A stretch of 64,000 nt of DNA from Mesorhizobium sp. (lineage in GTDB: Bacteria; Pseudomonadota; Alphaproteobacteria; Rhizobiales; Rhizobiaceae): assembly GCA_004017535.1 (NCBI GenBank), contig SAJS01000003.1, positions 1-64,000 on the forward strand, given 5' to 3'. The notes under the pieces are model-generated. The model was given only the letters and a program-made list of their open reading frames with translations. It was not told the origin of the DNA and did no database searches. The position numbers and the translations under genes are program-made. Within the stretch, counting starts at the first letter, position 1, and every line of letters begins with the position of its first letter. This document shows positions 46,519-48,116 of this stretch, piece by piece.

Positions 46519-46656
46519 CTATTTTCGGCCGGCTCGCCGCTTGCGCTCGCGCGCAGGCAGCTCGTCACGGCGGGTCCGCTCAGGCTGCTCGGTCCCGGGC
46601 GTGATGCCCCAATAGTTGCGGTAGATGTCCTGAAACAGATGACCAATCGGATGCAT
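46519..46656 (-). CDS. Microprotein A (45 aa) of a LacI-linked pair
   Basis: MHPIGHLFQDIYRNYWGITP is followed by a strongly charged tail ending RDELPARERKRRAGRK (45 residues in all). AAGGAG lies 9 bases before the ATG. The first 18 residues match microprotein B at 46716-46859 (MHP...LF-DIYRN-WGI), the tails do not. A 14-bp palindrome, TTGAATCGATCCAA, lies 18 bases upstream, the same site found at the lacI-type gene. No known family; the conserved N-terminus could be a protein-binding helix. Convergent with the DUF423 gene. Confidence 0.75.
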   Translation of the reverse strand: MHPIGHLFQDIYRNYWGITPGTEQPERTRRDELPARERKRRAGRK

Positions 46657-46674
46657 GATTGCTTCTCCTTGGAT

Positions 46675-46688
46675 TTGAATCGATCCAA
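46675..46688. promoter_or_regulatory. LacI-type operator, site 1
   Basis: TTGAATCGATCCAA, between the two microprotein genes and 18 bases upstream of microprotein A, close to its ribosome site. Confidence 0.7.
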
Positions 46689-46715
46689 TGTAAGGGTGCG
46701 AAAAATGGCTGCGAC

Positions 46716-46859
46716 TCAGCCGCGCTTACGCTCCACGAGGAAGCGCGGCTTGCGGCGCCAGGGACTCGACCTGCCTCGCCGCTTCTCGCTGACAGCGGCC
46801 GAAGCGATGCCCCAGTCGTTGCGGTAGATGTCCTCGAACAAATAGCTCACCGGATGCAT
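46716..46859 (-). CDS. Microprotein B (47 aa) of a LacI-linked pair
   Basis: MHPVSYLFEDIYRNDWGIAS, then a very basic tail (EKRRGRSSPWRRKPRFLVER). AGGAGGGATGCC precedes the ATG, an excellent ribosome site. It is a paralogue of microprotein A: 12 of the first 18 residues are the same. The site TTGGATCGATTCAA lies 44 bases upstream. The basic tail suggests binding to nucleic acid or membrane phosphates, but that is inference. Confidence 0.78.
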   Translation of the reverse strand: MHPVSYLFEDIYRNDWGIASAAVSEKRRGRSSPWRRKPRFLVERKRG

Positions 46860-46903
46860 GGCATCCCTCCTGTCGAAATTCGCTCCGCCATGGAGCATGG
46901 AAC

Positions 46904-46917
46904 TTGGATCGATTCAA
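46904..46917. promoter_or_regulatory. LacI-type operator, site 2
   Basis: TTGGATCGATTCAA, the reverse complement of sites 1 and 3, 44 bases upstream of microprotein B. Confidence 0.75.
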
Positions 46918-46952
46918 ATAATAGACCTCATTTGCCCGCCGTCAACTGAAAT

Positions 46953-46966
46953 TTGAATCGATCCAA
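46953..46966. promoter_or_regulatory. LacI-type operator, site 3
   Basis: TTGAATCGATCCAA, 70 bases upstream of the lacI-type gene and 35 bases from site 2, in the shared divergent promoter region. Pairs of sites at such distance allow looping by a LacI tetramer or independent control of each side. Confidence 0.75.
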
Positions 46967-47036
46967 CAAAAATGTTAGATGACCGGCAGCAATTCAGCGG
47001 TCATGTTCGTGCCGTGACCGGATTCGGAGGAACGAC

Positions 47037-48116
47037 ATGGCATCACTCCTCGAAGGCCAGGCAAGACCGATCAGGCTGGCCGACATCGCCAAGGCCGCCG
47101 GCGTCTCGCATGGTACGGCTTCCAATGTCTTCAGCCGGCCCGAGATCGTGCGCGCCGAAGTGCGCGAACGGGTCAAGGCGGTGGCGGAGCAGATGGGTTA
47201 CGCCGGCCCGGACCCGAAAGGCCGGTTGCTGCGCGCCGGCAAGGTCAATGCCATCGGCGTCGCCACCACCGAACCCCTCTCCTACTTCTTCGACGATCCT
47301 TTCGCCCGCGTCATGATGGGCGGCATCTCAGAAGCCTGCGACGCCACCGGCGCGGGCATCGCGCTGGTGTCGGCCGCCAACCAGGAGAAGCTTGCCTGGA
47401 ATATCCAGAGCGCCCTTGTCGACGGCTTCATCCTGTTCTGCATCGAGGGCGGCTCGCGCCTTGTCGACCTGACGCGCGAGCGAAGGCTGCCCTTCGTGGC
47501 GCTGGAGCTCGGCTTCCAAGACGAGACCGTCTCCGCCATCGGCGTCGACAATGTCGCCGGCGCAAGGCTCGCGGCGCGCCATCTGGCCGAACTCGGCCAT
47601 CGCCGGTTCGCGGTGCTGTCGCTGGCCTTCGCAGATAACCGCACCGGCTTCGCCACTCCGGACATCGTGCGCGGCGCGCTCTACACCGGAACACGCGACC
47701 GCCTTGCCGGCTATTTCGAGGAGCTTGCCCGCTTCGGCATCGATACGACGAAAATCCCGGTCTACGAGACCGAGAATGAGGAAAAGAGCACCAGGGCCGG
47801 CCTCGAGGCGATCTTCGCCAAGGACGAACCGCCAACCGCCATCCTGGCGATGTCGGACCGTATGGCGCTGATCGCCATCGACTGGCTGAAAGCGCGAGGC
47901 CTGGACATCCCCGGCGACGTCTCCATCGTCGGTTTCGACGGCGTGCCGGACGGCGCGCTGTGCACGCCCGCGCTGACCACGATCGCCCAGCCGATCACCG
48001 AGATCGGCCGCCGCGCCGCGCGTATGATCCTCGATCATGACGGTACGGTGCGGCGCGAGACGATGGGTGTCGAACTGATCGTCAGAGCCTCGACCGGCCC
48101 GGCCCGCACAGGCTGA
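47037..48116 (+). CDS. LacI-family transcriptional regulator
   Basis: A 359-residue repressor. N-terminal helix-turn-helix with hinge (IRLADIAKAAGVSHGTASNV, FSRPEIVRAEVRERVKAVAE, QMGYAGPDPKGRLLRAG) and a sugar-binding-like effector domain (ALVDGFILFCIEGGSRLVDL; SIVGFDGVPDGALCTPALTT). GGAGGAAC precedes the ATG. Three copies of one palindrome lie upstream of it and of the two microprotein genes, so autoregulation and control of that pair are inferred. Unusually for LacI proteins there is no adjacent sugar transporter or kinase; the effector is unknown. Confidence 0.93.
   Translation: MASLLEGQARPIRLADIAKAAGVSHGTASNVFSRPEIVRAEVRERVKAVAEQMGYAGPDPKGRLLRAGKVNAIGVATTEPLSYFFDDPFARVMMGGISEACDATGAGIALVSAANQEKLAWNIQSALVDGFILFCIEGGSRLVDLTRERRLPFVALELGFQDETVSAIGVDNVAGARLAARHLAELGHRRFAVLSLAFADNRTGFATPDIVRGALYTGTRDRLAGYFEELARFGIDTTKIPVYETENEEKSTRAGLEAIFAKDEPPTAILAMSDRMALIAIDWLKARGLDIPGDVSIVGFDGVPDGALCTPALTTIAQPITEIGRRAARMILDHDGTVRRETMGVELIVRASTGPARTG

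Follow-up and report, generated by a model that had tools for sequence, protein, structure and literature searches.

This locus of Mesorhizobium sp. raises the question of what a LacI-family repressor may control when the genes divergent from it encode two proteins of only 47 and 45 amino acids. The window, by which we mean the whole stretch of DNA analysed (64,000 nucleotides, positions 1 to 64,000 of contig SAJS01000003.1), holds the following features, given in order from the repressor gene towards the more distant microprotein gene:

47037..48116, + strand: LacI-family repressor gene, 359 aa, with a PF00356 helix-turn-helix and a Peripla_BP_3 ligand domain; orthologs have the same operators
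46953..46966: putative operator O1 (14-mer), lying before the -35 element of the uP2 promoter, with 70 bp between it and the start of the LacI gene
46918..46945, - strand: putative uP2 promoter, sigma-70-like (TTGACG-16-TATTAT), between O1 and O2 and facing the microprotein genes
46904..46917: putative operator O2 (14-mer, opposite orientation), directly after the -10 of the uP2 promoter
46865..46871, - strand: Shine-Dalgarno sequence AGGAGGG of uP2
46716..46859, - strand: uP2 microprotein gene, 47 aa, MHPVSYLFEDIYRNDWGI...
46707..46723, - strand: short hairpin with a T-run behind it where uP2 ends, a possible partial terminator by consensus match only
46675..46688: putative operator O3 (14-mer), between uP2 and uP1, 18 bp before the uP1 start
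46665..46670, - strand: Shine-Dalgarno sequence AAGGAG of uP1
46519..46656, - strand: uP1 microprotein gene, 45 aa, MHPIGHLFQDIYRNYWGI...

The product of the gene at 47037 to 48116 has the N-terminal helix-turn-helix and the periplasmic-binding-protein-like domain that define the LacI/GalR family, with scores of 42.4 bits for PF00356 (cut-off 27) and 108 bits for Peripla_BP_3 (cut-off 26.5), and it has LacI-family relatives among PDB structures. The neighbouring genes were assigned by Pfam to a GntR regulator, an MFS transporter, DUF423, OpgC and an esterase-like protein; the closest NCBIfam model for the MFS transporter is the efflux pump MdtG, at a score under the cut-off. A preliminary description of the locus had noted that sugar genes are missing beside the LacI gene. 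Our Pfam and NCBIfam check of the neighbours agrees, as no sugar catabolic gene or ABC transporter adjoins the locus, and none adjoins the LacI gene in the other genera looked at. The adjacent carbohydrate transport or catabolic genes under the control of a typical local LacI regulon are not seen here. No plasmid match to the LacI was obtained at E<=1e-60, and the idea of a phage or defence gene found no support in PHROGs or PADLOC.

The two short frames, described in the preliminary description as genes with strong ribosome sites, were assessed in a set of 80 named loci taken from 103 confirmed ones (78 titled Mesorhizobium and 2 with broader titles). By construction of the set uP1 is present in 80 of 80 loci. 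The uP2 gene was found in 78 of them, 75 by pattern and 3 by eye, one of the latter (L084) with an altered head; it is absent in L124 and L128 and frameshifted in L064. Pooled pairwise dN/dS values for uP1 were 0.10 in the head, 0.39 for residues 19-28 and 0.40 in the tail of the 26 forms of 49 aa, and those for uP2 were 0.08 in the head, 0.61 for residues 19-30 and 0.30 for residues 31-47, compared with 1.2 and 1.5 in the two shifted frames of uP2. The values in the heads, set against those of the shifted frames, rule out spurious frames and, at the level of sequence comparison, identify both frames as genes under purifying selection. An in-frame upstream start of uP2 exists at 46898, yet conservation sets in at 46859.

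Both microproteins have basic tails, and uP2 contains a second conserved block (PW.R.LRFLVERKR). With arginine contents of 20% (uP1) and 19% (uP2) they are short and arginine-rich in the manner of DUF1127 small proteins; neither gave a match to PF06568 (DUF1127) at E<=1, and no family in Pfam, NCBIfam, PHROGs or PADLOC fits them. Among solved structures the only relatives had E values of 0.07 and worse and were taken as chance. Regarded as a helix, the head is clearly amphipathic only in uP1, where 0.6% of shuffles reach its value, compared with 11% for uP2 and for one sequence of the related MIP type introduced below.

One alternative assigns the function to the short transcripts, as regulatory RNA or leader peptides, and none to the proteins; the very short genes and the hairpin with a T-run between them could be cited for it. 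However, the head dN/dS of 0.08-0.10 is accompanied by free synonymous change, no Rfam family scores above cut-off, and no gene stands behind uP1 on that strand. Only 16 bp separate the ends of uP1 and the convergent DUF423 gene, so there is no further cistron after uP1, and because this convergent gene follows, the arrangement is not that of a leader-peptide attenuator. We therefore regard an RNA or leader function as extremely improbable.

The three copies of a 14-bp palindrome reported in the preliminary description are in place, but the palindrome is imperfect (TTGAATCGATCCAA reads TTGGATCGATTCAA on the other strand), so that the copies are identical only after the middle one is turned. 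The description had also put one site upstream of each gene. This holds for O3, which lies in the gap between the microprotein genes and before uP1, while O1 and O2 both lie in the LacI-uP2 intergenic region, where they flank one promoter. By sequence, the copies agree with LacI/GalR operators in being even palindromes with a central CG at the repressor's own putative promoter. In the window, 7 strand-counted matches with at most two mismatches were found against 0.71 expected, a number reached in 0 of 100 shuffles. In the whole genome (6.86 Mb) TTGRATCGATYCAA fits exactly three places, all at this locus, in a genome scan of the kind that the preliminary description had recommended; 4 further places fit with one mismatch, and base composition would give ~0.02 exact and ~1 one-mismatch places. 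A chance origin of the sites is ruled out by the shuffles, by these genome-wide counts and by the presence of the sites throughout the LacI clade described below.

In the alignment of the 80 named loci, the -35 and -10 of the uP2 promoter stand out as conserved islands between the operators, O3 is kept between uP2 and uP1, and the T-run at the uP2 end is largely conserved. Since the hairpin and T-run close uP2, uP1 may be transcribed by partial read-through past O3; no clear second promoter was seen at the locus. In some Mesorhizobium loci (L075, L085, L101 and L119) a fourth operator lies ~33 bp after O2, as in genera with a single microprotein gene. A unit of one operator and one microprotein gene may have been duplicated to give the pair.

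Further sites elsewhere in the genome, which the preliminary description had considered, were sought with the exact pattern TTGRAYCGRTYCAA in 38 genomes, and with exact and one-mismatch forms in the genome of the strain itself. Among 24 genomes 62 of the 63 exact sites were at the LacI locus, with 1 site for the reversed-pattern control; among 14 further genomes of the order the figures were 23 of 25, with 2 control sites. In the 38 genomes together, 85 of 88 exact sites are at the LacI locus, and the three off-locus sites occur at the rate of the control, since the reversed pattern also gives three. Apart from a possible exception at thuA/thuB, the expectation of further sites was not borne out. 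Two genomes (G333 and G405) have no exact site, though near sites are present.

One off-locus exact site, in G122, lies beside a second LacI gene that is divergent from a cupin gene (L278; G122:C14, around 2581). This second LacI has a VSRSTASNVF helix and several similar operators, and together with the cupin gene it appears to be a sister module with an ordinary-looking target. Of the one-mismatch sites in the genome of the strain itself, one (C19:41996, L005) lies over the start region of an MFS transporter gene and another (L004) inside a frame, and the placement of a third (L007) is ambiguous.

Sites at thuA and thuB, the former gene being named from PF06283, deserve separate mention. In G427 and G336, two genomes of genus g185, TTGAACCGGTTCAA occurs exactly 76-79 bp before thuA (L276, position 2401; L277, position 2384), which there forms a stand-alone thuA-thuB pair. 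In the strain itself a one-mismatch site, TTGAATCGAACCAA (C55:208527), lies in the thuA-thuB gap 20 bp before thuB, placed relative to the start codon as O3 is before uP1, and the identical TTGAATCGAACCAA 14-mer with varied flanks occupies this gap in four close relatives (G015, G004, G026 and G047). ThuR is a LacI-family regulator of the thuAB trehalose system. The two cases resemble each other in the regulator family and in the operator-like sites that thuA/thuB have in a few genomes here. However, thuAB is not next to this LacI, no LacI was found near thuAB in three 16-17-kb stretches, and the ThuR motif (AAAnCGnTTT core, as given in the available excerpts of PMC4052901) is unlike TTGAATCGATTCAA.

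These sites bear on the proposal that the LacI is a sugar regulator with hidden targets, which mainly serves catabolic genes such as thuA/thuB via imperfect sites and has the microproteins as a side branch. Such a role would be in line with the sites in the two g185 genomes, the strain itself and its four relatives, and with the statement in the available part of PMC4052901 that most LacI regulators serve carbohydrate pathways. On the other hand, no site was found at thuA in the more distant Mesorhizobium genomes G012, G021 and G030, in G595, G127 and G294, or in three of the five g185 genomes, and the exact off-locus sites equal the control in number. We consider this proposal quite unlikely as an account of the locus. 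The thuA/thuB genes are a possible second target, and the operator-like sites at stand-alone thuA/thuB in two lineages give a weak lead towards a trehalose-like sugar as the ligand.

The LacI gene is divergent from and at most 233 bp away from a microprotein gene in 85 of 85 loci, which answers the question raised in the preliminary description of whether homologs sit near LacI genes. Within the genus, a microprotein was detected at E<=1.6e-5 in 56 of 61 genomes. In four of the five remaining genomes the LacI is missing as well; the fifth (G042) retains it (72%), with no operators and no microprotein in front of it; seven microprotein-bearing genomes of the genus tested alongside had the LacI in 7 of 7 cases. 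At the locus of the fifth genome (L288) the stretch with operators and microproteins is apparently absent, and there is DUF423-like sequence nearby. In the family, 18 of 346 genomes have a microprotein match at E<=0.01, and all 18 are among the 30 of 342 genomes with the LacI at E<=1e-90; seven weaker microprotein matches (E 0.012-0.046) are not among LacI-bearing genomes. The two tandem paralogs singled out in the preliminary description are the rule in the genus (78 of 80 named loci), yet the pair is not a fundamental part of the system, as outside the genus the gene is often single or replaced by another small gene.

It is conceivable that the microproteins are toxin-like and are kept silent by the three operators, being short, basic and tightly guarded, with quickly changing tails. 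Yet there is no antitoxin gene, the head is under purifying selection in 80 loci, and neither PADLOC or PHROGs nor, for known toxin-antitoxin families, Pfam/NCBIfam gave a match. Moreover, four genomes of the genus do without the module and one has the LacI alone. A toxin is in our judgement very improbable.

The neighbourhood is syntenic across the genus: among the 80 named loci DUF423 is kept in 78, the MFS gene in 78, OpgC in 79, the esterase gene in 78 and the GntR gene in 72, so conservation of the locus is there partly that of the region. The stronger evidence for co-inheritance comes from other genera, because there, as read by eye, the neighbours differ. LacI orthologs without an MHP protein, as we call uP1, uP2 and their relatives after their first residues, still have operators and a divergent small ORF. 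In a tree of 58 LacI rows, made by a quick method and with 21 of 55 inner branches weak, a branch with SH-aLRT 99 unites 53 rows, of which 23 have an MHP protein in the divergent slot, 17 a related MIP protein, 11 a DUF1127-like protein and 2 (L210 and L225) other small ORFs. This clade of 53 sampled LacI genes spans four families of the order. A small ORF and three operator-like sites are also present at L270 and L273 (identity of 52 and 50%), but these two loci fall outside the clade, where they branch beside three rows without operator sets; they were left out of the clade counts. No LacI ortholog was found outside the order in 308 genomes class-wide, where the best LacI was 44% identical, and of four outside-order LacI loci checked three had no site of 12/14 and the fourth had one.

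Absence of the palindromes at homologous loci had been named in the preliminary description as a finding that would speak against it. Of the 53 clade rows, all have two or more sites of 12/14 or better within 400 bp and 50 have three or more, against a shuffled background of 0.013 per 430 bp stretch. The gap between the two sites nearest to LacI is 46-50 bp in 50 of 53 rows, and the one after it usually measures 31-36 bp. In the recognition helix, the residue that follows VS varies with the operator core, although the site counts are inflated by related rows: a CCGG core was found at all 21 sites of the 7 rows with K, TCGA at 63 of the 75 sites of rows with H (otherwise 8 CCGA, 1 ACGA and 3 CCGG) and CCGA at all 3 sites of the one row with R, while the 66 sites of rows with Q have mixed cores. 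The three H sites with CCGG, all in L225, run contrary to this covariation, which as a whole supports direct recognition of the sites by the repressor. Strong synteny within the genus might also be expected of an ordinary leftover, that is, an orphan LacI with a decayed regulon in a conserved neighbourhood. This is barely plausible given that all 53 clade members have retained operators together with a divergent small ORF, also in genera where different genes surround the locus.

The MIP protein, for example with the head MIPASYLFK..Y, mostly fills the slot in genera g30, g92 and g103 and in families f50, f16 and f6. Its head aligned with that of the MHP proteins with an hhalign probability of 95.7 over 21 columns, and a profile built from MHP proteins only put the divergent ORF at the top in 14 of the 17 MIP loci (the exceptions being L260, L262 and L263) and in 0 of 10 other loci. 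By these sequence comparisons we propose an MHP/MIP microprotein family, defined by a shared head of ~20 residues and a place divergent from this LacI clade. The order-wide search with the MHP profile missed the MIP types, which were found via the LacI; gene calls in relatives' genomes outside the named loci are mechanical. MHP proteins can be considerably longer, with 136-137 aa in L253 and L254, and the MIP-type proteins of family f16 (L260-L265) have hydrophobic C-terminal stretches, as opposed to the basic tails in Mesorhizobium. The tail may decide the place of the microprotein in the cell.

The 11 DUF1127-like proteins in the slot have 74-92 aa. When 8 of the 11 were scored against PF06568, two were over the cut-off (24.0 and 24.3 vs 23.3 bits), five were under it (16.4-21.6 bits) and one had no match at E<=0.01. 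On the LacI tree the slot type changes 6 times without, and 7 times with, the three rows lacking operators. These changes count against a closed loop in which the microproteins would bind the LacI itself as anti-repressor or co-repressor and so form an autonomous feedback switch. Inheritance of microprotein and LacI together across genera while other neighbours change, and the near absence of other operator sites, would both suit a loop of this kind. However, LacI identity remains at 54-70% across 6-7 switches in the type of the small partner, some of them to unlike DUF1127-like proteins, and with each switch a LacI-binding surface should change too. We regard the loop as unlikely.

The arrangement can be compared with described systems. 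Local repressors of the LacI/GalR family, according to the available excerpts of PMC4052901, resemble it in their helix-turn-helix and sugar-type ligand domain, in even palindromes with a central CG, in the autoregulated divergon and in several sites spaced by about 32 bp; such a distance, like one of about 22 bp, is there taken to suggest cooperative dimers. The present locus differs in that the divergent target is a microprotein gene and not a carbohydrate pathway, in that there are nearly no other sites and in that most members have three sites at constant distances, with gaps of 49 and 33 bp.

For the microproteins the nearest working precedent appears to be the small DUF1127 proteins, which are likewise small, arginine-rich and alphaproteobacterial and have a dedicated regulator. 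As far as the excerpts of the respective papers go, those of A. tumefaciens bind the sensor kinase PhoR (PMC12501420), and three in Brucella, under VtlR, are linked to fucose use (PMC12595884, PMC12218461). DUF1127 proteins act via protein partners (PhoR) or RNA and are linked to carbon and phosphate metabolism (PMC12501420, PMC12595884), while uP1 and uP2 have another head and no PF06568 match, and the DUF1127 regulator there belongs to the LysR family. The strongest hint that uP1 and uP2 might, by analogy, act in a similar way comes from the DUF1127-like genes found in this slot under LacI control. A second comparison is with proteins of fewer than 50 aa that are induced by a signal and act on a larger protein, which is how we propose that uP1 and uP2 may work. 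SgrT is a small inhibitor of a larger partner protein. MgrB (47 aa) is another, according to the available text of PMC12501420; no sequence kinship of either to uP1 or uP2 was seen.

No LacI is named in the available excerpts of the S. meliloti small proteome study (PMC10117765). The operator 14-mers were not found in the literature searched, which gave only 12-mer matches, in three papers that appear unrelated by title. A LacI controlling microproteins of this kind is likewise not described in that literature, which covers few subscription journals, in keeping with the preliminary description's view that no system of such form is known.

Taken together, we favour, with a probability of roughly 60%, a self-contained regulatory divergon in which an autoregulated repressor has as its main output a small regulatory protein made when the ligand is present. 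Dimers of the LacI-family repressor would occupy O3 as well as O1 and O2, between which lies the one strong microprotein promoter. The repressor would also control its own gene via O1, since O1 lies close before that gene. A ligand, by family probably a sugar, would free the sites and allow a short mRNA to give uP2 and uP1. Coupling of the repressor to itself and to the microproteins, as the preliminary description had supposed, is what the sites and the co-inheritance across the clade point to. At the level of sequence, the comparisons document selection on the coding frames, the layout of the operators, a nearly complete restriction of sites to the locus, inheritance together with the repressor and helix-operator covariation, while repression, induction by ligand and a sugar as the ligand class are probable by analogy with the family. 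We infer that uP1 and uP2 are regulatory or adaptor proteins. Their invariant head (MHP...LF.D.Y...W) would dock on a conserved partner, contact between proteins being our guess, and their variable, mostly basic tail would adjust affinity or place. Since the slot is taken by unlike proteins in several lineages, a single conserved partner is not assured.

A broader reading, to which we give slightly less than an even chance, is that of an order-specific signalling module, in which the LacI sensor would relay a metabolite signal via an exchangeable small protein (MHP, MIP or DUF1127-like) and not by direct catabolic control.

The classic example of catabolic genes controlled by a sugar is that of the LacI regulators. 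In the present case an old branch of this group, conserved across four sampled families, appears to guard a microprotein family that is absent from Pfam, NCBIfam, PHROGs and PADLOC. Our results suggest that this old and conserved arrangement of LacI and microprotein passes on a metabolite signal through the microprotein. The module is compact and found in cultured nitrogen-fixing symbionts, and, if this holds true, it would provide a handle on the function of small basic proteins in Alphaproteobacteria, among them the DUF1127-like ones, and on how a metabolite signal can reach targets other than promoters.
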